Of a stretch of 34,795 bases of DNA, positions 502 to 28,442 are shown piece after piece. A program made the position numbers and the translations under genes. The notes below the pieces were generated by a model. That model saw nothing but the letters and a program-made list of their open reading frames with translations, made no database searches and had not been told where the DNA came from. This DNA comes from Bacillota bacterium (lineage in GTDB: Bacteria; Bacillota; Sulfobacillia; JAJZYS01; JAJYTV01), in assembly GCA_021793645.1 (NCBI GenBank), contig JAJYSJ010000027.1:1-34795 (forward strand). Direction: 5' to 3'. Within the stretch, counting starts at the first letter, position 1. Every line of letters begins with the position of its first letter.

Positions 502-576
502 CACTATTGACCAAGCGGCATTACGTATCCTAAGCGTTTCTGGCTCGGGGAAGTACGCGCACTTTACACGAAGTAC
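502..576 (+). repeat. R1 dispersed repeat, copy 1
   Basis: This is the best-preserved member of a family of intergenic repeats of about 75 bp. Conserved blocks in order are CATTGG-like (here CTATTG), CGTATCCTAAGCGT, GGCTCGGGGAAGTACGCG and TTTACACGAAGTA. The core AAGTACGCGCACTT is a near-palindrome. The hexamer GAAGTA occurs twice, exactly 20 bases apart. Other copies lie at 15700, 17605, 19055, 20031, 20955, 21842, 23784 and 28118, all in this orientation. Here R1 is followed about 30 bases later by repeat R2. Confidence 0.8.
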
Positions 577-603
577 GGACCCGGTCTTGGCGAACTGCCC
601 GCA

Positions 604-712
604 CCCTGATCCCTCAGGGGCCAGAGGCGAAGAGTGCAGCAGCACCGGACCGGTTTGTGCATTGGGTTCGAGTGCGTCAACCAGACAAGCTGTTGGAGGT
701 AGCTCCTGGTTC
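604..712 (-). repeat. R2 dispersed repeat, copy a
   Basis: About 100 bp matching four other copies (3200, 6935, 13438, 21040). Shared blocks on the plus strand are CCCTCAG, GGTTTG-GCA followed by GAGTGCG, and GACAAGC. Read on the minus strand, the copies carry the frame L-P-x-T-A-C ... A-Q-T-x-x-V-L-L. This copy keeps the frame for about 25 codons, but an indel near the end takes it past the TGA that closes the other copies. It is the most diverged member. Confidence 0.6.
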
Positions 713-3038: not shown

Positions 3039-3199
3039 GGGCAACCGCCTCCCCTGTGCGGGAGGTCTTCGCTCCTGGCTGCCCAGATCCTGTCAATGCC
3101 TGTGCTCGTGTGTCATGTGAGGCACCGAGACGACTGTCGTGGCTAGGAGAGCTGCGCCGAATGCTGTGCTCCGGTAGAAGCGCGGGATGTCCCAGGCGA

Positions 3200-3308
3200 G
3201 GAGGCTTGTCCCTCAGTGGCGTAGGGCTGGGAGTCCAAGTACCACCTCAACGGTTTGCGCACTATTGGCTTGGAGTGCGCCAGGAGGACAAGCAGTCTTT
3301 GGCAGACT
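3200..3308 (-). repeat. R2 dispersed repeat, copy b
   Basis: R2 copy lying in the 3045-3578 gap. On the minus strand it reads S-L-P-K-T-A-C-P at 3308 and continues in frame through AQTVEVVLGLPAL to a TGA at 3213-3215, the same position as in copies c, d and e. It also carries the GCGCAC...GTGCGC inverted repeat. The rest of the gap (3045-3199 and 3309-3508) shows no gene that I can support. Confidence 0.7.
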
Positions 3309-3508
3309 CTGGGTCCACTGGCAAGCGGCGTAGCGCACGGGTCGTGCTGAAGGACGAAGCCGTGTTCCAAGCGATTCTTGGCCTGCAGGGCGCGGGACAT
3401 CTCATGGTGGCGTTTTTCCCGGCTACCGTGGTGAACGAGAATCTGCGCCAGGACGGGTGCTCGGCACGCCTGCCAACCACTACGAGACTTGATCCGAAAG
3501 GTACCAGT

Positions 3509-3578: not shown

Positions 3579-4775
3579 CTACCCTCCAGATACGGTTAGC
3601 ACCTGCCACCTGCCGTGGGGGGCCGGGAAGACGAAACCGTGCGGCATCGTGAAGACGTCACCCGCGTCGCCTTCCCCAACGGTGATGGTCTTCGAGCCGC
3701 CGGGTGTGGCCAGCTTTAGGCGAATCGAGCTGTTCTCCACGTAAATGACATAACCTGGGCCCGTGGAGAGCACATTTATCGACGGTGACGAGTGGTTGAT
3801 GCCTGAATTCCACACGCGGATCGTCATCGCTCCGGCGTTCGGCGTAAGGGAGCCTCCCTTCTTAGACACCCAGATCGCGCCGTTCGCGTCGATGCCGGAC
3901 GAGAGAGAAGGAAGGTGGGCGACGAGCGTGGCCGTGAGACCGTCGATGCGGTAGAGGTCTGTGGGCGCAAGAGACGGGTAGTTGTACTTTTGCACGTAAA
4001 GGGTCCCGTCAGGTGAGAAGAGGGGCCCCCAGCCTCCGTCGGACATGACGGATAGGAGGCGCCCCCTCACCCCGGTTTGGAGATTGACGGATCCCTGCGC
4101 GAAGAGGGGGCCGTTCTCATAGGCGCTGGCAAAGAAGTAAGCCCATCCTTGAGAGACGTACGTCGTCGCGATTGGCACCGACCCTCCCGTCCAGAGGGTC
4201 CAGGTTGCACCGGTCTTCGGGTCGGCCAAAATCCCCTCCGGCTTCCCACCCGAGGCGACGCACTCGACGAAGAGGTACTGCCCGCCGACCGGGCTCACCT
4301 GTCCCTGCGTGGCGCAGGGGAGGTTGGCCACGACCTCTGTGTGGCCATTCGAGTTCTGCACGAGGTCGTTCGGAGTGGATTTCGGCACGTAGTAAATGGC
4401 CGACTGCCCAACCCCGAAGGACTGCCAGCCGGGGTCTCGCGGATTGTACACTTTCGGCAGCAGGTGTGTGGACACAGTAAAGCTCCCGACCTTCCACACC
4501 TGTGTCGAGTGCTTGTTCCGGGTGGTTGGGGACGGCTGATGGCCGAGTGAATGCAGTAGGGGCGCACCGGCCAACAGCAACACAACGAGCACCGCGGCCG
4601 CAGCGGGCCAAGCCCAGTAGCGCCCCGCCCGCGGCACGTTTCCGGGCCGAGCATTCCGGCGCTGCCGCCAGAGGTCACGGTCGAACTTGACGGAGTCGTC
4701 CAAGCCAGGCAGACCGATCCGGCGAAACTCGTCTCTCCACTGTTCTTCTTCGGAGCCCTCACGATGTGGCGCCAC
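3579..4775 (-). CDS. Anti-sigma-factor-like membrane protein with an extracytoplasmic sensor domain
   Basis: 398 aa from the GTG at 4775. This start has GGAG just upstream and overlaps the sigma gene's stop by 17 bases, which suggests translational coupling; an earlier GTG at 4799 lacks a ribosome binding site. The layout is about 50 cytoplasmic residues rich in charge (EEEQWRDEFRRIGLPGLDD), one transmembrane helix (WPAAAAVLVVLLLAGAPLL), and about 310 residues outside. That layout and the sigma gene immediately upstream are what define anti-sigma factors of ECF sigmas; no zinc-binding HxxxCxxC motif is visible. The outer domain shares the VGSFTVS block and the STGPGYVIYVENS block with the lipoproteins at 817 and 5561. 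Role inferred: binds and silences the sigma until the outer domain senses a signal. Confidence 0.75.
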   Translation of the reverse strand: MAPHREGSEEEQWRDEFRRIGLPGLDDSVKFDRDLWRQRRNARPGNVPRAGRYWAWPAAAAVLVVLLLAGAPLLHSLGHQPSPTTRNKHSTQVWKVGSFTVSTHLLPKVYNPRDPGWQSFGVGQSAIYYVPKSTPNDLVQNSNGHTEVVANLPCATQGQVSPVGGQYLFVECVASGGKPEGILADPKTGATWTLWTGGSVPIATTYVSQGWAYFFASAYENGPLFAQGSVNLQTGVRGRLLSVMSDGGWGPLFSPDGTLYVQKYNYPSLAPTDLYRIDGLTATLVAHLPSLSSGIDANGAIWVSKKGGSLTPNAGAMTIRVWNSGINHSSPSINVLSTGPGYVIYVENSSIRLKLATPGGSKTITVGEGDAGDVFTMPHGFVFPAPHGRWQVLTVSGG

Positions 4776-5256
4776 TTGTCTCCACCTCCCACTGCGCACG
4801 AAAACGGTCCCTTGCCCTTCGAAGGCGCGTGCGCACGGCCTCTGGACTCAGGTGCAGGGCCTTCGCGGTCTCTGCGATCGAAAGGTCCTCGTAGTAGGCC
4901 AACCACAGGCACTCGCGATCGCGGGGACGCAGGTGGTTCATCACCTCGTGCACCGCCAGCACGTCTGTGCCGTCATGCAGCCCCGAACTCAGGTCTGGTG
5001 GCTCGACCGACGGAGCAGCCTTATGCTGTTTGCGCAACATGTCCACGCAGAGATGGTGCGCGACCTGGTAGAGCCAGCCGGGAGAGATATGGGCTTCTGG
5101 ACGGCTACTGTGTGTGGTGAACAGGCGCAGGAACGTCTCCTGTGCCACGTCCTGCGCGGCCTGCCAGTCGCGCGTGTACGTAAAGGCGAACTGGGTAATT
5201 CGATCGCCGTGCGAGGTGATCCAACCTTCGAGCCATTCTTCCGAAAGGCCCTCCAC
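4759..5256 (-). CDS. RNA polymerase sigma factor, ECF subfamily
   Basis: 165 aa. I place the start at the GTG at 5256 because AAGGAGGG lies exactly seven bases upstream; longer in-frame extensions have no ribosome binding site. Region 2 (about residues 10-75) contains DVAQETFLRLF and the promoter-melting text WLYQVAHHLCVDMLRK. Region 4 (about 105-160) contains LRPRDRECLWLAYYEDLS followed by the helix-turn-helix ETAKALHLSPEAVRTRLRRA. It directs RNA polymerase to a small regulon and is co-transcribed with the overlapping anti-sigma-like gene. An ECF-type promoter motif sits 50-80 bases upstream, which suggests autoregulation. Confidence 0.9.
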   Translation of the reverse strand: MEGLSEEWLEGWITSHGDRITQFAFTYTRDWQAAQDVAQETFLRLFTTHSSRPEAHISPGWLYQVAHHLCVDMLRKQHKAAPSVEPPDLSSGLHDGTDVLAVHEVMNHLRPRDRECLWLAYYEDLSIAETAKALHLSPEAVRTRLRRARDRFRAQWEVETSGATS

Positions 5257-5307
5257 GTCCCACCCTCCTTCAGACACCCAGGACCAGACAGGCGCTTTTG
5301 TTTTCTT

Positions 5308-5334
5308 AACGGTGCACGAGCCCGCAACGTGACA
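5308..5334 (-). promoter_or_regulatory. Candidate ECF-type promoter for the sigma/anti-sigma operon
   Basis: On the minus strand, TGTCACG, sixteen bases, then CGTT. The spacing and text resemble the TGTCACA-N16-CGTC promoters known for ECF41-type sigma factors. The motif is about 52 bases upstream of the preferred GTG start. Related motifs (TGTCAGG, sixteen bases, CG) lie upstream of the second sigma gene and of the Asp-box gene at 26849. This is a prediction from pattern only. Confidence 0.4.
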
Positions 5335-5560
5335 GGTGCCATCTGCCCAAATGCGCAAATTGGCTCAGGCTCCGGCAGCCCGAACGTAGGCCTGCGCCCC
5401 CGCTTCGGCTGGGTTGGTCGAAGACCGTACCTGAAGTGTCGCAGCCGTCCCAAAGAAAAAGCGGAAGTACCTGGGGATCGTGCAACCCGCACAGCAAGAA
5501 GGGCACCGATCTTCCAGCCCTATTCCCATTGCAGCAGAAACCAGACCATCACGGCGCTGC

Positions 5561-6774: not shown

Positions 6775-6880
6775 CGCCTGCCGTCGCGAGTCGCGACCCG
6801 AGGACGGGCTGCGGGTAGTGGCTCAGTTGGTGACCGCTCCGCGGGAGGTCTTCGCGCCCGGCTGCCGCGATCCTGTGCTG
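6775..6880 (-). repeat. Relic of a duplicated leader (copy of 2998-3096)
   Basis: The block CGGGAGGTCTTCG followed by GGCTGCC and GATCCTGT matches the upstream region of the gene at 2172-3038, and CCGAGGACGG matches too. The membrane-anchored gene itself is missing here: the leader runs straight into the start of the 5561-6691 lipoprotein. I read this as one arm of a duplication from which the gene was deleted. The wider gap 6692-7173 contains this relic and R2 copy c, and no intact gene. Confidence 0.5.
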
Positions 6881-6934: not shown

Positions 6935-7045
6935 AGGCCTGTCCGTCAGTCGCTTAGACCAGGGAGCGCAAGCACCACCTCAGCGGTTTGCACACCATGG
7001 ACTTGGAGTGCGCAAAGGGGACAAGCCGTCTTCGGTAGCCCCTGC
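6935..7045 (-). repeat. R2 dispersed repeat, copy c
   Basis: R2 copy that on the minus strand reads LPKTACPLCALQ, then VQTAEVVLALPGL to a TGA at 6946-6948. The frame is open back to an ATG at 7164 (72 codons), only nine bases after the acetyltransferase stop at 7174. A near-equal frame (71 codons, also starting MGTSAR) follows the second acetyltransferase copy at 21260. Neither ATG has a ribosome binding site. The TTTGC-CAC...GTGCGCAAA inverted repeat is well kept here. Confidence 0.65.
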
Positions 7046-7173
7046 GCGAAGGAGGCGCACTCTGGTAACGCGCCTGCAACCGATGTCCGGGGCCCTCGGC
7101 ATGCGCTGTCCGCGTCGGGTAGTCCTTCCGTGACCTGGGCGCCGGCACGAGCACTGGTGCCCACGTGGCGGAT

Positions 7174-7644
7174 TTACTTCCCGGCTAGAGACCTCTCGAC
7201 CACCAGCGTAGCGAAGGCATCCGCCGCGTAGTCATCATCGCCGTACACTCCGTCGACCCAGGTGAAGCCCTGCTTCACTCAGAACCGGATGGCTGCCCAA
7301 TTCTTCAAAGCCACCGCAAGCATCATCCGGCGAAATCCCACGCGGCGCGCTTCCCGTGCGAGCCCTTCGACAAACTGCCCACCATAGCCCTGACGTTGCC
7401 CTGAACGGTGCACGCAGAAGAAGGTGACCCACAGCGTTCCATCATCCGGATAGCCGTGATAGAACGTGGCGTAGCCTACCATTTCCCCGGCCCCTTGGAG
7501 AAGAACGGCTGTACCTTGAACCGCTCTACGGTTCCACCCGGCGGAAGGTCGCCCTCGCTCGGCCGGCACCATGCCGCAGGCGGAAAGTCCGAAGACTGCA
7601 GGGGCTGCGAGGACTGCGCGAAGACCTGTGGCGCGTCTTGGCAT
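7174..7644 (-). pseudogene. Chimera: lipoprotein signal peptide joined to a broken GNAT acetyltransferase
   Basis: From the ATG at 7644 (with AGGGGGAA upstream), about 20 residues form a signal peptide ending in the lipobox L-S-A-C. After about ten further residues the sequence becomes the C-terminal two-thirds of a GNAT acetyltransferase (GEMVGYATFYHGYPDD and the acetyl-CoA loop GQRQGYGG). A TGA at 7276-7278 replaces a Trp codon that is TGG in the paralogue at 21270-21820; beyond it the frame stays open to the real TAA at 7174. The acetyl-CoA-binding half therefore exists but lacks its N-terminus, and the last 35 residues are cut off. The signal peptide start lies just downstream of the lipoprotein gene 7675, so the fusion may still be co-transcribed. 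Confidence 0.6.
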
Positions 7645-11444: not shown

Positions 11445-12677
11445 TTAGAACTGAGGGTACGGAGTAGCCCAGTGAAGACCTCCGTCGTGTGTCGCGATCA
11501 GCCACACGTGACCGCCGCTCTGAGCCAACGCCCAGCCGTTGCTCGAACTGGTGAACGCAATGGACGTGACCGAGTAACCCTTGGGCAATTTCTCACTCTG
11601 CCACGTCTTTCCGCCGTTCTCTGACCGCCAAAGCCGATTGTCTCCTGAGGCCCAGAGGTGAGTGAGGTCCGTAAAGGCGTACACGTTTCCTGGTAGCCGG
11701 ACAGGAACGGACCAGTGCGCGCCGCCGTCGCGTGTCATGGAGAGCCATGTGGACGCCGGGCTAGCCTGCGTGACAATTGGCAGCACGCCATCGCTTGGCG
11801 AGAAGTAGATAGGAGGATTGGTAGCAAGCTGAAACTTCAGCAAGGCGTCCGTACCCAGCGGCACATGACCCGTTGCGCCGTTGCCGCTTGCCGTCCTGCC
11901 GAGAACTGCTGAACCGAGGTTCGGGGAGATCTGGCCAATCCATCCCGATGCCGCGGCCGGGTCGGAGAAGGAGATCCCGGTCATGGGAAGGCCGGTGAAC
12001 TTGAACACCCTGTTCCAAGTAGCGCCTGCGTCCCCGGATCGATACACGGTGCCTGCATCGGTCCCCATCGCCCCGGTCACGTTGCCGAGAGCGTACCAGA
12101 CAGCGGGAGTGGCGAAGTTGACAAAGTCCGCCCCGGTGGTTTGGCCCGGAAGTTGCACGCTGCGCCATGGGCCGCCGGAATCACGTGCGATGTAAACGGT
12201 GCCGGACACGCCGACGATGGCGATCTCGGATGACCCAACTGCACGCAGCCTCACTGGTGCCGCCGTGGACAGACCCGTCTGGAACACGCGCGACCACAAC
12301 CGCCCGCCATCTGACGTGCGGTAGACCACCACCGGTCCCGTGTCCGCCGTAGTCTGATTCTCCACTGCCAAAGCGAATCCAACCTTCATCGAAACGAAGA
12401 GGAGTTGTTCAGCAGGGAAACGGAGCGGCGCACCACTGATCGAAACCGCTTGCGTCGCCGGCTTGACGTGATGGACAGTAGACGCCATCCAGAAAGTGGT
12501 CACCGCCAGCAGCGCCACAAAAGCCGCAGCGGCCGCAGTCCGCGGTACAAGGCGTCGGGCCGGCCTTCTCCGAGGCGTCCAACTCGTGAGGATGCTGTCT
12601 ATCGGCGCTGACGACACCCGCATGTCCCGTATCTCCCGTCGGATGGCGTCCTGTAGCCTCTCTTCAAATTGATCCAC
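11445..12677 (-). CDS. Anti-sigma-like membrane protein with an Asp-box propeller sensor
   Basis: 410 aa from a GTG at 12677. About 45 charged cytoplasmic residues (EERLQDAIRREIRDMR) lead to one transmembrane helix (TAAAAAFVALLAVTTFWMA) and a C-terminal domain of about 340 residues outside, with six Asp-box motifs (TSDGGRLW, ARDSGGPW, SGDAGATW, TRDGGAHW, SENGGKTW, THDGGLHW). The start overlaps the end of the upstream sigma gene by 14 bases, the arrangement expected for a coupled sigma/anti-sigma pair. The outer domain belongs to the same repeat family as the surface proteins at 7675, 10276, 13667, 17812, 23937 and 26849. Function inferred from layout; no zinc motif is visible. Confidence 0.75.
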   Translation of the reverse strand: MDQFEERLQDAIRREIRDMRVSSAPIDSILTSWTPRRRPARRLVPRTAAAAAFVALLAVTTFWMASTVHHVKPATQAVSISGAPLRFPAEQLLFVSMKVGFALAVENQTTADTGPVVVYRTSDGGRLWSRVFQTGLSTAAPVRLRAVGSSEIAIVGVSGTVYIARDSGGPWRSVQLPGQTTGADFVNFATPAVWYALGNVTGAMGTDAGTVYRSGDAGATWNRVFKFTGLPMTGISFSDPAAASGWIGQISPNLGSAVLGRTASGNGATGHVPLGTDALLKFQLATNPPIYFSPSDGVLPIVTQASPASTWLSMTRDGGAHWSVPVRLPGNVYAFTDLTHLWASGDNRLWRSENGGKTWQSEKLPKGYSVTSIAFTSSSNGWALAQSGGHVWLIATHDGGLHWATPYPQF

Positions 12678-13217
12678 GGGAACCGCCCTCCTTGTCTTCC
12701 GTCAGGAGCTGCTTGAGGGTTCGCTTGGCCTTCCACAGCACGTATCTGACCGTTCCCGCGCTGGTGCCTAGCATCGAAGAGTTTCATGACTGCGATAGCC
12801 GTAGTGGTAGTGAAGAGTGAGCACCAGTCTCTCTCTGGGATTCAAGGACCAAATCGCGGCGCGTAGGTCGCCCTGCTCGGGAGTGGCTTCAGCCTGCTCG
12901 GGAAGCGGACGGACGAGCTCCTGCCAGCCACTTCGGCGATTCTCGCGGTAGGCCGCACGGGTGACTAGACGGAAGAACCAGGACCGAAAGGATGCTGGGT
13001 TGCGTAGTCGGGGCAGCGAGTTGAGCATCTCGATGCAAGCACTCTGGGTTGCATCCTCGGCTGTCTGAGAGTTCTTAGTGACCATACGGGCGATGCGATA
13101 GGCATCCGGCCACAGCCCCTCGACCAAACTGCCCGCTGCTTCGCGATCTCCGTCCGAGACTCGCTTTAGCAGTTCCGCATCGACAAGCAATGAGTCGTGC
13201 CCCCCAGACGTGTCCAT
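12664..13217 (-). pseudogene. ECF sigma factor, frameshifted in region 4
   Basis: Region 2 is intact (TAEDATQSACIEMLNSL, then PASFRSWFFRLVTRAAYRENRR), as is the start of region 4 (SLNPRERLVLTLHYHYGY). At about 12775-12785 the frame runs into TAG after SHETLRC. A shift of one base restores the rest of the DNA-binding helix: MLGTSAGTVRYVLWKAKR followed by a TGA at 12664-12666, inside the start of the anti-sigma-like gene. The uninterrupted stop at 12768 would remove the recognition helix. No slippery heptamer is evident, so I read it as a one-base deletion (mutation or sequence error), not programmed frameshifting. The ATG at 13217 has a poor ribosome binding site; a TTG a few codons in follows GGGGGG. 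Confidence 0.7.
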
Positions 13218-13312: not shown

Positions 13313-13437
13313 AACCCTGACGAGGCGCGCAACGGCCTCCCACGTCTTCATCAGGTGCGGCCGGTGGTGCGGGGCTTCACCGACGACCTCCGGCCAGCCT
13401 AGCGTGTTCAGGTGCGGGAGTTTCCGGCACCCGCCCC

Positions 13438-13555
13438 CTTATCCCTCAGCCGCCCAAGGCGGAGAGCGCAAGCACTACCGCAACGGTTTGCACACCATCG
13501 GTTTCGGGTGCGCCATGGGGACAAGCAGTTTTCGGGAGACTCTGGGTACGGTGGT
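13438..13555 (-). repeat. R2 dispersed repeat, copy d
   Basis: R2 copy whose minus-strand frame reads SLPKTACPHGAPETDG, then VQTVAVVLALSALGG, to a TGA at 13446-13448. Compared with copy e, nine of the ten differing codons in the two conserved blocks are synonymous. The rest of the 13218-13666 gap holds the candidate sigma promoter, a poly-A run at 13259-13267, and from 13606 the leader shared with the 23937 gene (GAATTATCCCAG then CGGGAGTG). Confidence 0.7.
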
Positions 13556-13666
13556 AAGCGAAGTTCGTCGCCGATAAGTCGCTCTCGGCTTCGCTCCAGG
13601 TAAGCGGAATCCGCCAGCAGGTTCCCAACCCGAGAAGGGGAATTATCCCAGACGGGAGTGTTGATC

Positions 13667-15595
13667 GTGTCCAGACAGCGGGCCCTCGTACTGGCAGCCG
13701 CAGCAGCGATCATCCTGTCCGGCTGTTCGAATGCCTCCGCGCCACCCACGTCTCCCAAGCCTCTGCGGCCGATCACGGCCGAGTTCCTTGGCTCCCTCGG
13801 CGCGCCCTTGGTGACGGCCGTGCATTTCCTGGACTCGCTGCACGGTTGGGTCGGCATCATCGGGACGTCCTACTTTCAGGGCCAGAAGATGCTGTCCAGC
13901 GGCACGCTCCTGCGCACGACCGACGACGGCCGCAGCTGGCAGGTCGTAGCTCATACGCAGCGACCCATCCTGGCGATCGACTTCTTATCTGCGCAGGATG
14001 GCTTCGTGCTGGCGGGCGGCGAATGGACCTCCCCACAGATCCTTTACCACAGTGCGGACGGCGGACAGACGCTTCAGGACCTCTCCCACCCCCGTCCTGG
14101 CGCCGGGAAGACCGAAATGCACTTTTCCTCCCCAACGCAGGGGTTCATCGTCAGCCAGAACACACTCGATATCACGACCGACGGCGGCCGAACATGGAAG
14201 ACGTCCTCTGCCCAGCCGAAGCCCGGCGACTTTGGCGGCCCGATGCCGTTCTCGCCGGTCTTCCTTTCGGGGAGCACCGGTTTCGCCGCCGGGGGAAGAG
14301 GCCTCATGCGTACCACGGACGGCGGCCAGTCTTGGCAGAGCGTCTACGTCCTGCCAAGCGGCGACGTTGCCTCCGACAGTCCCCTGGCCTTCGCGAACTC
14401 GGAGGTCGGCTACGCCGCTGTCTGGGTGAACCCGCCTCCTCCTGGCAAAAGCAGCACCGTCATCCTGCGCACAGATGACGGCGGAGCGTCGTGGCGCATC
14501 GTCTCCGGCGTGCTGCCCGGAGCAAAGGTCGTCGGCGTACCACCCCCGAGCGGCGCAGACGGTATGGCCGCCTGGGGGCAGGAGGACGTTGCCATCAGGG
14601 AGCAGGGCGCGGTCTACGTTAGCAGGAACGGCGGAGTGACCTGGAAGTCCGTCGCCGGGCTTCAGCTCAACAACTACATGTGGGGAAACGTCTTCACCTA
14701 CGATCCCGCAGGCAGGCTCCTCGCGGACGACATGGACGACAACCTCATACGCCTCACGCAGAGCGGCGCTCGGCAGCTGATATGGCCGATCACGCCCCTC
14801 ACGCGGGTGGACTTCGTGAGCGCCACTCAAGGATTCGGCCTCGCGCACGGGTTGGGGCAGCTGCATCTCGTGCGCACGCCCGACGGCGGTCTAACCTGGG
14901 ACGCAGTACCGATGCCGGGCGGAAGCGCACCGACAGGTCTTACGTTTGCGGGTTCCCGCAACGGCTGGGTCCTCCGGGGCACCGACGGGCGACCCCTGGC
15001 GACGGCCGACGGCGGAAAGACATGGCGGCCGATCGGCGTCAGGCACGTACTGTCCGCACGGATCTTCCCGAGTGGCAGCGGCTTCCTCCTCGTCCAGCCG
15101 CCCGGCGCGAAGGAGCCCATCCTGCTCGCCACTTCGGATGGCGGCAAGCGCTTCGTGCGGCGGTCTCTCCCGCGGAAGCTGCCTGTCGGGGGCATCGTCC
15201 GCTTCGCCTCGCCGCAGGTCGGCTTCGCGGCGTCGGGCGAGTCCGTTTGGCGGACCGAGGACGGCGGGCTGCACTGGCGCTTCGTCCCGCTGCCAGAGCA
15301 CCTGTATGACTTCGTACCCGTCGCATCGATGGGGGCAGATCCGTCGGGCGATCTCTGGCTCATCGTCGCTTACGGCCAGGCCGGTGCCAGCACGACGCCG
15401 CAGGAGCTTTGGATCCGCCATCCGGACGGCGCCTGGCAGGAGGTACGCCTGCCGGGAATCCAATTCCCCTTCGATGCAACGAGCGAGTCGCTCGACGTCT
15501 ACTCACGGCGCCAAGCTTGGCTGGCGACGCCCGCCGGAGTGTTCGAGACGAAGGATGGCGGACGTACATGGCGATCGGCCGCGCCCAGTTTCTGA
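13667..15595 (+). CDS. Asp-box (BNR/YCF48-like) propeller lipoprotein, 11 repeats; paralogue of 23937-25865
   Basis: 642 aa from the GTG at 13667. An in-frame GTG at 13658 exists, but the paralogue has a stop codon at that point, so the shared start is the downstream one, with CGGGAG upstream. Signal peptide and lipobox are LSGC at about residue 20. Eleven Asp-box-like motifs run through the whole mature protein (for example TTDDGRSW, TTDGGRTW, TTDGGQSW, TDDGGASW, SRNGGVTW, TPDGGLTW, TADGGKTW, TEDGGLHW, TKDGGRTW), roughly every 45-60 residues, enough for two propellers. Such repeats occur in sialidases, Vps10 and the photosystem assembly factor YCF48; here no catalytic sialidase residues are apparent. 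Likely a surface binding or scaffold protein. Confidence 0.85.
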   Translation: MSRQRALVLAAAAAIILSGCSNASAPPTSPKPLRPITAEFLGSLGAPLVTAVHFLDSLHGWVGIIGTSYFQGQKMLSSGTLLRTTDDGRSWQVVAHTQRPILAIDFLSAQDGFVLAGGEWTSPQILYHSADGGQTLQDLSHPRPGAGKTEMHFSSPTQGFIVSQNTLDITTDGGRTWKTSSAQPKPGDFGGPMPFSPVFLSGSTGFAAGGRGLMRTTDGGQSWQSVYVLPSGDVASDSPLAFANSEVGYAAVWVNPPPPGKSSTVILRTDDGGASWRIVSGVLPGAKVVGVPPPSGADGMAAWGQEDVAIREQGAVYVSRNGGVTWKSVAGLQLNNYMWGNVFTYDPAGRLLADDMDDNLIRLTQSGARQLIWPITPLTRVDFVSATQGFGLAHGLGQLHLVRTPDGGLTWDAVPMPGGSAPTGLTFAGSRNGWVLRGTDGRPLATADGGKTWRPIGVRHVLSARIFPSGSGFLLVQPPGAKEPILLATSDGGKRFVRRSLPRKLPVGGIVRFASPQVGFAASGESVWRTEDGGLHWRFVPLPEHLYDFVPVASMGADPSGDLWLIVAYGQAGASTTPQELWIRHPDGAWQEVRLPGIQFPFDATSESLDVYSRRQAWLATPAGVFETKDGGRTWRSAAPSF

Positions 15596-15699
15596 TGCCC
15601 GCAGCGCCAAAGATGGGAGGATGGCAAAATACCCGTTGCCCCGCCCCGCATACGCGGTTCAGGCGCAAGGTCACGCGTAATCGACACTCGGTCAGGAAG

Positions 15700-15757
15700 G
15701 GTTACGTATCCTAAGCGTTCCGCGCTTGGGGAAGTACGCGCGCTTGACGCTAAGTAT
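15700..15757 (+). repeat. R1 dispersed repeat, copy 2
   Basis: R1 copy 105 bases after the stop of 13667-15595. TTACGTATCCTAAGCGTTCC and GCTTGGGGAAGTACGCG are intact; the 3' end is TTGACGCTAAGTA, with one GAAGTA changed to TAAGTA. The 5' CATTGG block is not recognisable. The remainder of 15596-15903 shows nothing else I can support. Confidence 0.7.
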
Positions 15758-17227: not shown

Positions 17228-17557
17228 ATGTGCAAGATGGAGGGTGCCTGCTTGGACGACGAACAGGCGGTAATAATCTGGGTGAAGCTCAGTGATGACA
17301 CGTGGGGCTCGGCGAAGGAATCAACTGCTATCCAGGCGATAGAGGAACTCCTGGACCAGTCCATAACCCCGGACATCGGAGAATATGATGGCCACGAGAA
17401 AGCTCTAGGCTGGTTTACGATGTATCTCTACGGGCCCAACGCCGATCGACTCTGGCGTCTTGCTTCAAACCTCATAGCGGAGTGGCCGAAGGGTTCCTAC
17501 GTTGTGAAGAGGTATGGCCCTCCGGGCGCTACAGAAGTTCGGCTTGACTTGGCCTAA
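17228..17557 (+). CDS. Small conserved-looking cytoplasmic protein of unknown function
   Basis: 109 aa, acidic, with no signal peptide or membrane segment. It has the alternating pattern of a small alpha/beta protein: a strand (AVIIWVKLSDD), a helix (TAIQAIEELLDQ), then EYDGHEKALGWFTMYLYGPN-type text, a helix (ADRLWRLASNLI) and the ending GSYVVKRYGPPGA. The YLYGP-AD and VKRYG blocks recur, from memory, in uncharacterised small proteins often found near toxins or in defence islands. I cannot name a family, and no toxin is adjacent. A weak ribosome binding site precedes the ATG; an in-frame ATG follows three codons later. Confidence 0.65.
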   Translation: MCKMEGACLDDEQAVIIWVKLSDDTWGSAKESTAIQAIEELLDQSITPDIGEYDGHEKALGWFTMYLYGPNADRLWRLASNLIAEWPKGSYVVKRYGPPGATEVRLDLA

Positions 17558-17604: not shown

Positions 17605-17666
17605 CCACATTGGCCAAGGTGCCTTCTGTCTCCTAAGTGATCTCGCGCGCAGTTTACCCGAAGTAC
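17605..17666 (+). repeat. R1 dispersed repeat, copy 3 (internally deleted)
   Basis: CACATTGGCC at the 5' end, TCTCCTAAGTG in the middle and CGCGCAGTTTACCCGAAGTA at the 3' end match the R1 family. About 15 bases containing GGGGAAGTA are missing. It lies between two same-strand genes, 48 bases after the first. Confidence 0.6.
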
Positions 17667-17811
17667 GGCGCGAGCGGGCCGCAGTCATCAATCGGCGCGG
17701 CTTTGTCACATTCCCGTCGTGACCGTGGTTCGATCCCCATGTGGTGCGGCTGTCCCCAGACTACCTGTTGGCGTAGTCTGGAAACAGGCGCACGGTCGGG
17801 GGGGATGGGAT

Positions 17812-19008
17812 ATGGCACCTCGCGGAGTAACAGGTCGCAGTCCACGCCGCACGATCCTTCTCTGGTCTGGGGCCGCCGCCGTTGCAGCCGCCGTCGTGAC
17901 GACTGTCGTCTTGACGAGGCCCCCAGCGCGTCAAACCGCATCGCAACCGATTCTCACCGTGCCATCGGTGCAGACTGTGATCCCCTCGCCGAACATCAAG
18001 ACCGCGAATTCCCCCGACATGACTTCACGTGAAACGGGCTGGATGGCCTGGGGTAGTGTCCACAAGCAAGGCAAGCCGGCGGTGGCAAGGACGACCGACC
18101 AGGGCCGCAGGTGGATCAACGTGACGCCCCGCACGGACCTTGTGGGCGCGAAACTGTCGCTGGATCCAGTCGGGGCTCGAAAAGCGTTTTTGGTTGTAAT
18201 CCACCCGGGAAAGTCCGCGATTGTATACGTCACAGCAGACGGCGGCAAGACGTGGACGCAAGGCCAACGAGTTCCCGTCCTGTACGGTGATGGCGGCGCC
18301 CACCTCGCCGCGCGAGGCAAGGACGTCTGGCTTGAGGTTGGTGGAGCCGCCCACGACGAAGCGGCCCAGCTCTTCACGTCGCGCGATGGCGGCATGACGT
18401 GGCGGCTCGTCGCGAAGCACGCTCCCAATGGATTGGGCACTTTGCCGGGATTCGGTTGGCTGGTATTCACAAGTGCCCAGGATGGTTTCACATGCTCGAA
18501 CGGCGAGAACGCAGGGATTTTCAGGACCGACAACGGCGGTGCCGCGTGGACGCCTGTCTCGCCTGGCCACTTTCTACAGGTTGACCTGCCCGAGATCACG
18601 CGAGAGTACGGTCTAGCCGCAGTCTACCTGATCAGTCCCCCGTCGTTCTTCCCAGAGTTCCTGCGCACAACCAACGGCGGACAATCGTGGAGCGTCGTTA
18701 TAGGCCCGAGCACCCCAGAGATATCTTTGGAGGCGAACGTCGACGTACTCAACGCTGACACAGCGATGTACGTCGATGTTGCCGGTGACATCCGCCGCAC
18801 TACGAACTGCGGCCGGTCGTGGCAGACGATCCCGCTCGGGGCATCGTCAAAGGCCCTTCTGCACGGGAACATCATCATTTCACTAACCTTCGGTTCGCAG
18901 AAGGTGGGGTGGGCGGTCATGACGGCGAAAACGGTCAAGTTGAAGGGTCCCCAGACGCTCTATCTCACCACCGACGGCGGGCGTTCGTGGAAAGCGGTAG
19001 CCAAGTAG
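17812..19008 (+). CDS. Membrane-anchored Asp-box propeller protein, 7 repeats; paralogue of 26849-28066
   Basis: 398 aa from the ATG at 17812, placed by a GGGGGGG tract about 7 bases upstream. About 15 cytoplasmic residues are followed by one transmembrane helix (LLWSGAAAVAAAVVTTVVL) with no lipobox cysteine, so it is a type II membrane protein with the propeller outside. The Asp-box motifs are TTDQGRRW, TADGGKTW, SRDGGMTW, TDNGGAAW, TTNGGQSW, TTNCGRSW and TTDGGRSW, about right for one propeller. The first 110 outer residues are almost identical to the paralogue, while the later blades differ more. TGTCACA lies about 100 bases upstream (17704-17710) but without a matching second box. Confidence 0.85.
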   Translation: MAPRGVTGRSPRRTILLWSGAAAVAAAVVTTVVLTRPPARQTASQPILTVPSVQTVIPSPNIKTANSPDMTSRETGWMAWGSVHKQGKPAVARTTDQGRRWINVTPRTDLVGAKLSLDPVGARKAFLVVIHPGKSAIVYVTADGGKTWTQGQRVPVLYGDGGAHLAARGKDVWLEVGGAAHDEAAQLFTSRDGGMTWRLVAKHAPNGLGTLPGFGWLVFTSAQDGFTCSNGENAGIFRTDNGGAAWTPVSPGHFLQVDLPEITREYGLAAVYLISPPSFFPEFLRTTNGGQSWSVVIGPSTPEISLEANVDVLNADTAMYVDVAGDIRRTTNCGRSWQTIPLGASSKALLHGNIIISLTFGSQKVGWAVMTAKTVKLKGPQTLYLTTDGGRSWKAVAK

Positions 19009-19054: not shown

Positions 19055-19128
19055 TCAACATTGGGGAACTGCGTTGCGTAACCTAAGCGTTCCGGACTCG
19101 GGCAAGTACGCGCAGTTTACACGAAGTA
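19055..19128 (+). repeat. R1 dispersed repeat, copy 4
   Basis: Full-length copy: TCAACATTGGGG, GCGTAACCTAAGCGTTCC, CTCGGGCAAGTACGCG, AGTTTACACGAAGTA. It begins 47 bases after the stop of 17812-19008. The paralogue at 26849 also has R1 at the same distance from its stop, so gene and repeat were duplicated together. Region 19129-19227 shows nothing else. Confidence 0.75.
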
Positions 19129-20030: not shown

Positions 20031-20105
20031 GCAACATTGGTCCGGCGACATTTCGTATCCTAAGCGTCCACGGCTTGGGGAAGTATGCGGACTTTACACG
20101 AAGTA
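20031..20105 (+). repeat. R1 dispersed repeat, copy 5
   Basis: Full-length copy: GCAACATTGG, TTCGTATCCTAAGCGT, GGCTTGGGGAAGTATGCG, ACTTTACACGAAGTA, with the two GAAGTA exactly 20 bases apart. It lies between the truncated small membrane gene and the 20320 gene. Region 20106-20319 shows nothing else except the ribosome binding site of the next gene. Confidence 0.75.
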
Positions 20106-20319
20106 TCCACTGGGTAGCGCGGCGGCTTCCAGTAGCCCTCCGTTGACGGGTGTTGCATTGGCGCCCGAGGATAGGGTGGCAGGCACCTGTCGGAAGGCAA
20201 AGGGTGTCGCCCGTTCTCGCATCTGAGTGTTGGACTCGACCTGCTCGTTCTTGCCGTTGCGCATTTGCACGGCCGCGCTGGCTCCGAAGGTCACGCTCAG
20301 CTGTCCCGAGGGGAGGCCT

Positions 20320-20814
20320 ATGATGTCACTCCGCCCCATGGCACAGGCGTATCGGCTAGGGCTGTTGACTGGTGTTTTTCACAAAGAGGATGTCGTCGCT
20401 TGGGCGGATCGCATCGTTGCAAAGTACCCCGCAAAAGACATTCCCTCCTCCTTGCTTGACATATCTTTAGCAAGTAAGCGGACCACTGGCGACATCGTTC
20501 AGATGCTCGGTGAAGTGCAAGGGGAATACGACGCTGGACAGGCGACTAAGATTGTCCTCGGGGAACTGCGTAGACGGTACAGCACAGAACTGAGCAGCGT
20601 AGGAGAGATCACATCCAAATTATATGCCCTTGCCAACGCAAGTGGTGAACTCGATATCTCAGTGTTTCGGGATATTATGACGGTGACTGAAGCGTACGAT
20701 TTGGCGGTTAAACGCATTGTGTCCATGCAGCAAACATTGGCACTCTTAGATGAATTCTTTGCTCCTTATCAGAAGTACGAAAATGTACTTCTTGAATCGC
20801 GATCATGTTCTTAG
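20320..20814 (+). CDS. All-helical cytoplasmic protein of unknown function
   Basis: 164 aa. GAGGGGAGG stands four bases before the tandem ATGs at 20320 and 20323, which sets the start; a longer in-frame extension has no ribosome binding site. No signal or membrane segment. The sequence is predicted helical throughout: AQAYRLGLLTGVFHKEDVVA, WADRIVAKYP, then IVQMLGEVQGEY and a C-terminal helix around residue 140. The WADRIVAKYP block recalls small uncharacterised proteins seen beside polymorphic toxins, but I cannot name one. The second half is visibly more AT-rich than neighbouring genes, which suggests acquisition from elsewhere. Confidence 0.7.
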   Translation: MMSLRPMAQAYRLGLLTGVFHKEDVVAWADRIVAKYPAKDIPSSLLDISLASKRTTGDIVQMLGEVQGEYDAGQATKIVLGELRRRYSTELSSVGEITSKLYALANASGELDISVFRDIMTVTEAYDLAVKRIVSMQQTLALLDEFFAPYQKYENVLLESRSCS

Positions 20815-20954
20815 CCAATGAACTACAAAGGTCGTTGCGCTTCGACCTCTAGGAAATGGGAGAAAGGCGACCTAAAGCCTTTAGTCGTTCGGTGGCAGGG
20901 ACACCGGCGTGTCGATCCCAGCCGTGCTTGTTCTGCGGTTGGTCACCATGCATT

Positions 20955-21005
20955 CTGTCTCACCAAGCATTTTCGGCTTCGGGGAAGTCTGCCTTCGCGA
21001 AGTAC
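20955..21005 (+). repeat. R1 dispersed repeat, copy 7 (degenerate)
   Basis: Core GGCTTCGGGGAAGT, then TTCGCGAAGTA, with 15 rather than 20 bases between the two GAAGT. The 5' half is barely recognisable. As in copy 1, R2 follows about 30 bases later, so R1-R2 is a composite unit at two loci. Confidence 0.5.
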
Positions 21006-21039: not shown

Positions 21040-21140
21040 GTACCTCAGCCGCCCAACGCAGACAGCGTCAGCACCACCGCGACGGTTTGCGCATTGTACG
21101 CATCAAGTGTGCCAAGGGGACAAGCCGTCTTCGGTAGCCC
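21040..21140 (-). repeat. R2 dispersed repeat, copy e
   Basis: The minus-strand frame reads LPKTACPLGTLDAYN, then AQTVAVVLTLSALGG, to a TGA at 21045-21047; it is open back to an ATG at 21260, ten bases after the acetyltransferase stop. Codon-by-codon comparison with copy d shows synonymous third-base changes in the conserved ends and many replacements in the middle. The similarity with copy c extends beyond R2 through to the acetyltransferase, so 6950-7570 and 21045-21670 are a duplicated block. Confidence 0.7.
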
Positions 21141-21269
21141 CTGGGCGAAGTGGGCACGCTCTGGTAACGCGCCTGCAACCGATGGCCGGGGCCCTCGGCG
21201 TTGTCCGCCGGTTAGGTAATCCTTCCCGGCATTGTGACTTGTACGAGCACTGGTACCCATTTGGTGGAT

Positions 21270-21820
21270 TTACTTCCCGGCTAGAGACCTTTCGACCACC
21301 AGTGTAGCGAAGGCATCCGCCGCGTAGTCATCATCGCCGTGCACTCCTTCGACCCGGTTGAAGACCTGCTTCACCCAGAACCGGATGGCAGCCCAATTCT
21401 TTAGGGCCACGGCAAGCATAATCCGGCGAAACCCCGCGCGACGCGCTTCCCGTGCCAGCCCTTAGACAAACTGCCCACCGTAACCTGACGTTGCCCGGAA
21501 CGGTCCACGCAGAAAAATGTGACCCACAGTGTTCCATCATCCGGATAGCCGTGGTAGAGCGTGGCGTAGCCTACCATTTCACAGGTCCCCTGGGAGAAGA
21601 GCGGCTGTATCCTGAACCGCTCTATCGTCCCGGCAGGCGGAAGGTCGCCCTCGCTCAGCTGCCGCCGCATATCAGCGCTGTTCCTCTCGGGATGCCCATC
21701 GAACGCACCAATGTATGCGGTACCTTCCCAGATGGCTTGAAGGCGTTCGAGATCGCTCTCGGGGAGGGCATCCCGAACCAGCAGCTCCTCTGTCTCCCAC
21801 GTCACAGGAATTAGGCGCAC
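21270..21820 (-). pseudogene. GNAT N-acetyltransferase, frameshifted
   Basis: From the ATG at 21820 the N-terminal half is intact (RLIPVTWETEELLVRDALPE, then the CEMVGYATLYHGYPDD strand pair). Just at the acetyl-CoA-binding loop, where the paralogue reads GQRQGYGG, a base is missing and the frame ends at 21401. In the original frame the remainder is recognisable to the TAA at 21270, but it also contains a TAA in place of a Glu codon three residues after the loop (QFV-stop-G). GNAT enzymes transfer acetyl from acetyl-CoA to an amine; without the loop and C-terminus this copy should be inactive. The other copy (7174-7644) is broken in different places, so both decayed independently. Confidence 0.7.
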
Positions 21821-23783: not shown

Positions 23784-23851
23784 TTACATTTGGGAGACTC
23801 CTGCCTACGGCCAGCGTTCCAGGCTCCGGGAAGTACGCGCAACGCGAAGGA
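23784..23851 (+). repeat. R1 dispersed repeat, copy 9 (degenerate)
   Basis: TTACATTTGGG, CTACGGCCAGCGTTCC, GGCTCCGGGAAGTACGCG and ACGCGAAGGA align with R1 along its whole length, with substitutions in CCTAAG and a shortened 3' part. It lies in the leader of the 23937 Asp-box gene, about 85 bases before its start. From 23875 the leader is shared with that of 13667. Confidence 0.5.
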
Positions 23852-26848: not shown

Positions 26849-28066
26849 GTGTCAGGATGGGGGGGCTCGGCTGTGGGACCCGGACGACACGAGGAAGCAC
26901 GCAGAACGTTCGGAGCCCTCGTCTGGGTCGGTGGCATCGTCGTTGCAGCAGCCATTGTGACGGCCGTCGTCTTGACGAGGCCCTCGGCGCTCCAGACCTC
27001 ATCGCAACCGATTCTCGCCGTGCCATCGGTGCAGACGGTGATCCGCTCGCCGAACATCAAGACCGCATACTTCCCCGACATGACGTCACGCGAGACGGGC
27101 TGGATGGCCTGGGGCAGTGTGCACAAGCACGGCGAGCCAGCGGTGGCGAGGACGACCGACCAAGGCCGCAGGTGGATCAACGTCACGCCGCGCACGGACC
27201 TAGTAGGCGCAAAGCTGTCGCTGGAGCCAGTCGGCGCCCGACAGGCGTTCTTGGTCGCGGTTCATCCGGGGGAATCTGCGATCGTATACGTGACAACAGA
27301 CGGCGGCACGACGTGGGTGCGCGGCAAGCGGGTTGCTGTGCGTTACGGTACTGGCGGCGCATACCTCTCTGCGCGGGGCAAGCATGTTTGGTTGGAGGTC
27401 GGCATCGGCGGCACCACCAACGCAGCGGCCCAGTTGTTCACGTCGCGCGATGGCGGCATGACGTGGCGGCTCGTTTCGAAGCACACTCCGAGTGGTTCAG
27501 GCACCCTGCCGGGCTTCGGTTGGCTAGTCTTCGCAAGTGCCCAGGTTGGGTTCACAAGCCCGGGCCTCGGCAACACCCGTCTTTACAGAACAGACGACGG
27601 GGGCACCACCTGGACACCGGTCGCACCCGGCTATTGGTTAAAGATTGACCCGCCCCAGCTCGAACGAGAGGACGGCCTAGCCCAAGTCCACTTGTTTAGT
27701 TCCCCGGGCAGCTTGACAGAGTTCCTGCGCACAACCAACGGTGGACAAACATGGAGTGTCATGCTCTCGAACCTGACCAGACAGACCCCCATGGCTGGCG
27801 ACGTAGTGAACGCTGAAACAGCTCTGCTCGCCGACGTCGCTGGCGACATCCAACGCACTGCGAACGGCGGCCTTACGTGGCAGACGATCTCGCCTGGGGC
27901 AGCGTCGAAGAGCCTTATGCAACAGAACGTCATCGTCTACCTAAGCTTCAGTTCGCAAAGGGTGGGGTGGGCGGTCATGGTGGCGAGATCAGTCCGATTG
28001 CAGGGTCCCCAGACGCTCTACCTCACCACCGACGGCGGGCGTTCCTGGACGGAGGTAGCCAAGTAA
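26849..28066 (+). CDS. Membrane-anchored Asp-box propeller protein, 7 repeats; paralogue of 17812-19008
   Basis: 405 aa from a GTG with GGAG eight bases upstream. About 20 cytoplasmic residues are followed by one transmembrane helix (ALVWVGGIVVAAAIVTAVVL) without a lipobox, so the propeller faces outside. The Asp-box motifs are TTDQGRRW, TTDGGTTW, SRDGGMTW, TDDGGTTW, TTNGGQTW, TANGGLTW and TTDGGRSW. The region from SVQTVI to the second motif is nearly identical to the paralogue (ETGWMAWGSVHK is unchanged), whereas blades 4-6 differ in sequence. Cytoplasmic N-termini of the two are unrelated before the helix. R1 copy 6 follows the stop at the same distance as in the paralogue. Confidence 0.85.
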   Translation: MSGWGGSAVGPGRHEEARRTFGALVWVGGIVVAAAIVTAVVLTRPSALQTSSQPILAVPSVQTVIRSPNIKTAYFPDMTSRETGWMAWGSVHKHGEPAVARTTDQGRRWINVTPRTDLVGAKLSLEPVGARQAFLVAVHPGESAIVYVTTDGGTTWVRGKRVAVRYGTGGAYLSARGKHVWLEVGIGGTTNAAAQLFTSRDGGMTWRLVSKHTPSGSGTLPGFGWLVFASAQVGFTSPGLGNTRLYRTDDGGTTWTPVAPGYWLKIDPPQLEREDGLAQVHLFSSPGSLTEFLRTTNGGQTWSVMLSNLTRQTPMAGDVVNAETALLADVAGDIQRTANGGLTWQTISPGAASKSLMQQNVIVYLSFSSQRVGWAVMVARSVRLQGPQTLYLTTDGGRSWTEVAK

Positions 28067-28117: not shown

Positions 28118-28188
28118 TTCAACATTGGGTAACCGCGTTTCGTAACCTAAGTGTTACCCGTCTCGGGGAAGTCCGGCGCTCCAAGTAT
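28118..28188 (+). repeat. R1 dispersed repeat, copy 6
   Basis: TCAACATTGGG, TTTCGTAACCTAAGTGTTACC and TCTCGGGGAAGT are present; the 3' part is shortened to CCAAGTA. It is the partner of copy 4 by position after the paralogous gene. Region 28189-28583 beyond it holds the tandem repeat, the RNA-end-like sequence and the hairpin listed separately, and no gene that I can support. Confidence 0.65.
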
Positions 28189-28309
28189 CTTCTCTGCAGT
28201 CGGTCTTCTGCAGACTCTGGCGCTTACCTCGACGAGGCGCAGTTGACCGAGATCGCCAGAATGCTAACGCGATTGCTAACGCTTTGCCGGGAGCCGTTAG
28301 CAGTTTCCT

Positions 28310-28336
28310 GGAGTGTCCTGGAGTGTCCTGGACGAT
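28310..28336 (+). repeat. Short tandem repeat
   Basis: The unit CTGGAGTGTC occurs twice in tandem and is followed by CTGGA, 2.5 copies of 10 bp in a non-coding stretch. GCTAACG is also repeated nearby (28264, 28274, and inverted near 28297). No function is apparent. Confidence 0.5.
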
Positions 28337-28394
28337 CAGAGCCCCGGAACCCGCTCCAGAGGTACGTTCGGGGACTGGGCGGGAGTGCCAGGGA

Positions 28395-28442
28395 AGACAG
28401 GGGTTCGCAATCAATAGGGTTCTAAGCCCCTCGCCTCCACCA
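28395..28442 (+). other. tRNA/tmRNA 3'-end-like sequence, possible attachment-site relic
   Basis: CAGGGGTTCGCAATC is followed by AGGGTTCTAAGCCCCTC and then GCCTCCACCA at 28433-28442. GGTTC-N-A, a CCCC closing strand and a terminal CGCCTCCACCA are what the 3' end of a tmRNA or tRNA looks like. There is no matching 5' part (no GGAGGCG acceptor strand, no anticodon arm), so it is not a functional RNA gene. Such isolated 3' ends are left by integrases that insert into tRNA or tmRNA genes. No integrase is in the window. Confidence 0.3.

Follow-up and report, generated by a model that had tools for sequence, protein, structure and literature searches.

Repeats in an uncultured Bacillota lineage and the probable left end of a large serine recombinase element inserted in dpaB

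Introduction

The closest described system to the one reported here is vfbin, the intervening element in spoVFB of Bacillus weihenstephanensis KBAB4 (PMC4191935, PMC10747680). In the sections of the literature that we consulted, vfbin is one of a set of elements of the same kind, with vrin, skin, the SP-beta prophage in spsM, and gin in gerE (PMC4191935, PMC5595907, PMC6957869, PMC10747680), and excision by a serine recombinase is described for such elements (PMC5595907). The locus studied here resembles vfbin in the gene that is interrupted, dipicolinate synthase subunit B, when the two are compared at the gene level. It differs in its host, which is another, uncultured Bacillota lineage, and in having dispersed copies of its left end, of which the consulted passages on vfbin make no mention.

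Other described systems share further features with this locus. The skin element of Bacillus subtilis also combines a large serine recombinase with a split sporulation gene (PMC6957869, PMC12607644) and carries an ars operon (PMC12607644), as a decayed copy of our element carries ars genes; in these accounts, however, its target is sigK and it is derived from a phage. The gin element, as presented in PMC5595907, is an exogenous element that splits a sporulation gene of Bacillus cereus and has a large serine recombinase and an imperfect inverted-repeat att site, but its target is gerE and it has three recombinases and a known directionality factor, whereas here one recombinase stands at the junction. 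SCC-type composite islands, which use Ccr serine recombinases, likewise hold multiple att-like sites with genes between them (excerpts of PMC5595907), and the recombinase described below gives sub-cutoff matches to CcrB and CcrC models. The target gene of SCC is different. In the portion of the open-access literature covered, we found no report of a split spoVFB/dpaB element in this lineage.

The data below connect otherwise anonymous repeats between genes with a defined site of recombination. To the Bacillus and Clostridium species known to have split spore genes they add an uncultured Bacillota lineage, in which att sites, recombinase and empty site are all at hand. Copies of an attachment end beside duplicated secreted-protein genes suggest, in addition, that such recombinases may shape gene arrays.

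Results and Discussion

Two co-oriented intergenic repeats

The window, by which we mean the whole analysed stretch of 34,795 nucleotides, is contig C20 of genome G000, one of a family set of ten genomes (G000-G009). The isolate codes of three relatives' contigs, from two MAGs, may point to acid mine sites, and the family is conjectured to be near Sulfobacillus. We searched it using nhmmer with profiles for two repeats, R1 (approximately 70-85 bp) and R2 (108 bp), keeping matches at E < 0.02. As shown in Table 1, the window holds eight R1 and five R2 copies, all 13 on the plus strand and none overlapping a mapped gene. Five of the eight R1 copies sit 50-125 bp downstream of a same-strand ORF. 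The R1 copy at 20939 is weak, with E 0.003 for the first profile and 1e-8 for the refined one. Co-orientation extends beyond the window: at E < 0.02 all 40 R1 and R2 copies are concordant within each of the nine contigs that hold at least two copies. Weaker R1-like matches (E 0.02 to 1) occur at window 21867 (plus), window 27078 (minus) and L058 7323 (plus), and the last two break this rule.

Table 1. R1 and R2 copies in the window
Feature	Coordinates	Strand	Remarks
R1	506..575	+	nhmmer E 9.4e-22; first half of composite 1
R2	610..712	+	nhmmer E 2.2e-20; composite 1; P'-like half-site ~653-675
R2	3208..3315	+	P' half-site 3253-3278 (minus strand), 4/26 mismatches
R2	6941..7046	+	P' half-site 6986-7011 (minus strand), 0/26 mismatches against attL consensus
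R2	13442..13548	+	P' half-site ~13486-13511 (minus strand)
R1, solitary	15688..15756	+	93 bp 3' of YCF48-like gene 13658-15595
R1 with internal deletion	17609..17665	+	52 bp 3' of small ORF 17228-17557
R1, solitary	19060..19128	+	52 bp 3' of YCF48-like gene 17719-19008
R1, solitary	20036..20105	+	nhmmer
R1, shorter variant	20939..21004	+	composite 2; 125 bp 3' of ORF 20227-20814
R2	21040..21146	+	composite 2; P'-like half-site ~21085-21112 with 2 extra nt
R1, partial	23813..23851	+	E 7.2e-7
R1 left part, then different module	28124..28181	+	58 bp 3' of YCF48-like gene 26849-28066

The module that follows the partial R1 at 28124 (window 28164-28442) recurs after a partial R1 on contig C53 (L044, from ~11383 down to 11200, minus strand). 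In the window it is followed by a stretch resembling a tmRNA 3' end, CTCGCCTCCACCA, which scores 14 bits against the Rfam tmRNA model, below gathering, and is perhaps an old island attachment site.

R1 runs in the same direction as R2 and, in the window, lies between genes; within the genomes searched it is confined to this family. It is present in eight of the ten family genomes, and a search with one R1 copy found it in none of 51 genomes from elsewhere. G000 has 15 R1 matches at E up to 0.01 (eight on C20, four on C13, two on C53 and a marginal one on C93) against six R2 copies, which lie in the window and on C84 only and two of which are paired with R1. R1 arrays also adjoin ordinary genes, such as that for methionyl-tRNA synthetase in G008. 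Exact-pattern scans of viral contigs, a narrow approach in which exact matches alone count, returned 0 matches each for R1 and R2.

We considered several identities for R1. RNAalifold predicted 0 pairs over 23 copies, and an RNA element was rejected given this lack of consensus structure and the lack of an Rfam gathering-level match in the window. An integron attC array was set aside on the same structural result and on finding no TIGR02249 match over cut-off in G000. The breakpoints between R1 types I and II were discarded as recombination points since their edges are not precise. R1 might instead descend from a short coding sequence (forward frame ...LRILSDPGSGKYA...) that has since decayed, for example the target half of another recombinase element. 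Column variability in R1 has a weak period of three (permutation p 0.014). Stops interrupt the in-register frame in 7 of 38 copies, whereas the other five registers have them in 13 to 30, a difference that is partly a consensus effect. Against this origin, 13 of the 38 copies have internal gaps, and searches of Pfam, NCBIfam, PDB, plasmids and phages with the R1 peptide returned nothing that could be its parent gene; its best match outside the family (G029) is a low-complexity-looking frame with no recognisable parent gene. We regard a coding origin as unlikely.

dpaB is cut where R2 begins

We surveyed dpaB (spoVFB, dipicolinate synthase subunit B) in 21 genomes using the TIGR02852 profile. 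The gene is cut at about codon 155 in five of the ten family genomes, and R2 starts exactly at the cut. In these genomes (G000, G004, G006, G007 and G008) the profile matches end at position 154-156 of 187; 3' pieces that start at position 143-151 and end at 187 stand alone at other loci. Five 5' parts extend beyond the cut (L083, L084, L139, L141 and L142), and R2 matches each of them (E 9.5e-19 to 3.1e-9). At L083 4350-4430 (C84, G000) and L084 4637-4715 (G007) it lies at the end of an ORF named dipicolinate synthase subunit B by NCBIfam, and the family match of that ORF stops at R2. A sixth 5' part, on G000 contig C2, continues into 10 bases of uninterrupted attB before the contig ends.

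The 3' parts of dpaB were found at seven loci in six genomes (L062, L136, L138, L140, L143, L144 and L145). In all seven a large serine recombinase ORF runs with its 3' end into the dpaB piece, which on its other side is followed by asd (aspartate-semialdehyde dehydrogenase). G001, G005 and G009 yielded a 3' part and no 5' part in the TIGR02852 search. In G003 dpaB is intact and asd comes after it; the attB of this genome is one of the two uninterrupted examples among the ten genomes, the other being that at the end of G000 contig C2.

Rejoining the two parts at the core restored a 189-codon frame in all three genomes in which both ends are present (G000 C84 with C80, G004 and G008). Compared with the intact G003 protein, 172 (G000), 163 (G004) and 166 (G008) of 189 residues are identical. 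The two G000 parts may not belong together, as C84 carries a broken recombinase that differs from that on C80. The presence in G000 of an intact attB at the end of C2 beside an attR on C80 is only suggestive of excision.

Other dpaB pieces stop earlier, at codon ~101-108 (L137 7875-8143 on G000 C2, L147 284-589 in G003, L149 1911-2036 and L148 4153-4320). In G000 the short piece lies upstream of the longer copy, which it partly duplicates in tandem.

Attachment sites and recombinase

The junctions define the components of a site-specific recombination system. In attB the left half ends ...CCCTTCGGGCA and continues GGATAATCC. The attL site, dpaB 5' part plus R2, has the same left half followed by CTCCAAGTCCATGGTGTGCAAAC (consensus), and attR, in which the 3' end of the recombinase ORF meets the dpaB 3' part, reads GTTTGCGCATCGTGGCACTGGAGCA (G005 copy) and then GGATAATCC. 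The junctions align base for base at a GCA core. The attP derived from two junctions is 48 bp long, and the consensuses of its P and P' arms form a dyad with 19 of 23 positions matching around CA, a score reached in 0 of 20,000 shuffles; this agrees with the imperfect dyad of ~50 bp around a central dinucleotide expected of a large serine recombinase attP. Three features of sporulation-gene intervening elements are likewise present: one split site, a recombinase at the junction, and a short core at which the frame is restored.

The recombinase ORF beside the dpaB 3' parts encodes 503 aa in five loci and is cut by contig ends in the other two. Two copies were scanned with Pfam and showed Resolvase and Recombinase domains, with the zinc ribbon below cut-off; the best NCBIfam match, also below cut-off, is to the fdxN excision recombinase XisF. 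At E 1e-20 no recombinase match was found in G003, G006 or G007, and the matches in G002 are distant or partial. The G000 copy on C84 is a decayed remnant with a truncated recombinase and a dpaB region 81% identical to that on C2; the copy (L083 4350-11862) encodes an LMWP-type ArsC-like protein, a partial ArsB, ArsD and two ArsA proteins, together with a cation efflux gene.

Given the dpaB/R2 and recombinase junctions, the dyad attP and the restored 189-codon frame, a large serine recombinase element is probably inserted in dpaB at codon ~155, with R2 as its left end, on the attL side, and R1 a separate repeat. In such a system the recombinase would cut at the central CA, excise the element and rebuild dpaB and, by analogy with the known elements, excision may be timed to sporulation.

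R1 and R2 side by side

The original observation, that R1 is followed by R2 on the same strand at two loci, was confirmed, with gaps of 34 and 35 bp between nhmmer edges. Two of the five R2 copies have an R1 end at most 45 bp upstream, a modest excess over random intergenic placement (p ~0.015). Their shared orientation is not independent evidence for a composite unit, since all eight R1 and five R2 copies of the window are on the plus strand. The linkers of the two composites are dissimilar (shuffle p 0.47), and the composite is therefore not a clean duplicate of one block.

It had also been proposed that, if R2 is the tail of a transposase or recombinase gene, R1 would be the end of the same element and solitary R1 copies could be non-autonomous derivatives. 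The link to recombination was right in spirit but wrong in detail. R2 does belong to a site-specific recombinase element, as it abuts a truncated gene whose other half lies beside a large serine recombinase, but it is not the tail of the recombinase gene; our search for its parent context led to dpaB and not to a transposase. As an end of the same element R1 fared poorly, being close at one of the four testable dpaB/R2 junctions. At that junction (L142, G006) a partial R1 lies ~190 bp from R2; in L141 the distance is 3.8 kb, and no R1 was detected in L083 (11.9 kb searched) or L084 (8 kb). The fifth junction, L139, was left out of this count, its contig ending 135 bp past R2.

In favour of R1 and R2 as the ends of one transposon are the near-equal spacing of the two composites and the partial R1 at the G006 junction. 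Against it, dpaB rather than a transposase abuts R2 at all five junctions, the linkers differ, and the order varies, with R2 preceding R1 in L058. The two repeats also occur independently: G007 has R2 and no R1 match, G009 has two recombinase copies and no R1 match, and G003 combines R1 with an intact dpaB and yields no recombinase match, the completeness of these three genomes being 76-82%. A single transposon is a very improbable source of both repeats. An insertion sequence with R1 and R2 as its parts was rejected on the dpaB junctions and on the one-in-four proximity of R1. We take the composite for a pair of neighbouring array repeats and not for a single transposon.

Left-end copies in the window

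Each window R2 comprises the P' side and ~55 bp more of the element. The other half of R2, as a consensus of eight copies, matches the dpaB B half at 12 of 16 positions next to the core (p 0.0002) and 14 of 29 overall (p 0.009); single copies match at 8-12 of the 16. We read the five window copies as left ends of att type, each fused to a diverged half that resembles attB. Relative to the attL consensus, the P'-like half-site of the copy at 610 lacks 3 nt and has probably decayed; both composite R2 copies carry indels in this half-site and are probably dead. Left ends are dispersed, whereas a search for right ends, which was not exhaustive, found none dispersed on the window, C13 or C53; the fuzzy half-site scan missed the copy at 13486 that is visible in the alignment. 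The window contains no convincing recombinase or dpaB remnant, and the assembly, in which, as in any MAG, contigs can be chimeric, gives no physical link between it and dpaB. In G004, G005 and G007 the arrays are found beyond the junctions, on the side of the element.

The window copies could stem from earlier insertions or could have been copied with duplicated lipoprotein/YCF48 blocks. In its strictest form the latter would make R1 and R2 mere passengers of homologous block duplication, with no recent site-specific recombination in the window. Consistent with this, the sequence beyond R2 is 90% alike over ~350 bp between 7147-7498 and 21243-21593, the R1 copies at 19060 and 28124 lie downstream of paralogous genes with like flanks, and the half-sites at 610 and 21040 carry indels. 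The copies are nevertheless co-oriented though the genes run in both directions, and the partner across the R2 core changes between like blocks. A G004 block consists of R1, a YCF48-like gene, a lipoprotein gene read from the antisense frame, and R2, and ends in dpaB; G005 has a like block on the recombinase's element side that terminates in the other half, and the window shows the same arrangement at 6941. This difference in partner is what site-specific exchange would give. We consider spread by block duplication alone a strong contender, at slightly less than an even chance.

With R2 read as the left end of the dpaB element, R1 would be an unrelated intergenic repeat that shares these arrays with R2 and points the same way. 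A bolder extension is that the family keeps dpaB split, with excision needed for resistant spores, and that the recombinase has seeded many co-oriented left ends and so built up and reshuffled the secreted lipoprotein/YCF48-like arrays, R1 marking a second site type; the system would then be a serine-recombinase counterpart of a cassette array. This larger model is speculative and we think it improbable.

Several further features were noted around the R2 copies. A short module (GGGAGGTCTTCGC...GGCTGCC...GATCCTGT) occurs at 3060-3095 and 6843-6880, ahead of the R2 copies at 3208 and 6941. At 734-798, in the interval from R2 to the lipoprotein gene 817-1944, a strong 30-bp inverted repeat (90%) is likely to be a terminator. 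A 32-bp segment at 13374-13404, 38 bp from the R2 at 13442, matches a transposase-like ORF on C2 (L137 6452-7348) at 94% and is likely a transposon remnant. Finally, at 3579-5358 and 11445-13217 two sigma-factor genes, each beside a putative membrane-anchored protein, possibly form sigma/anti-sigma pairs, which lie among the duplicated YCF48-like genes.
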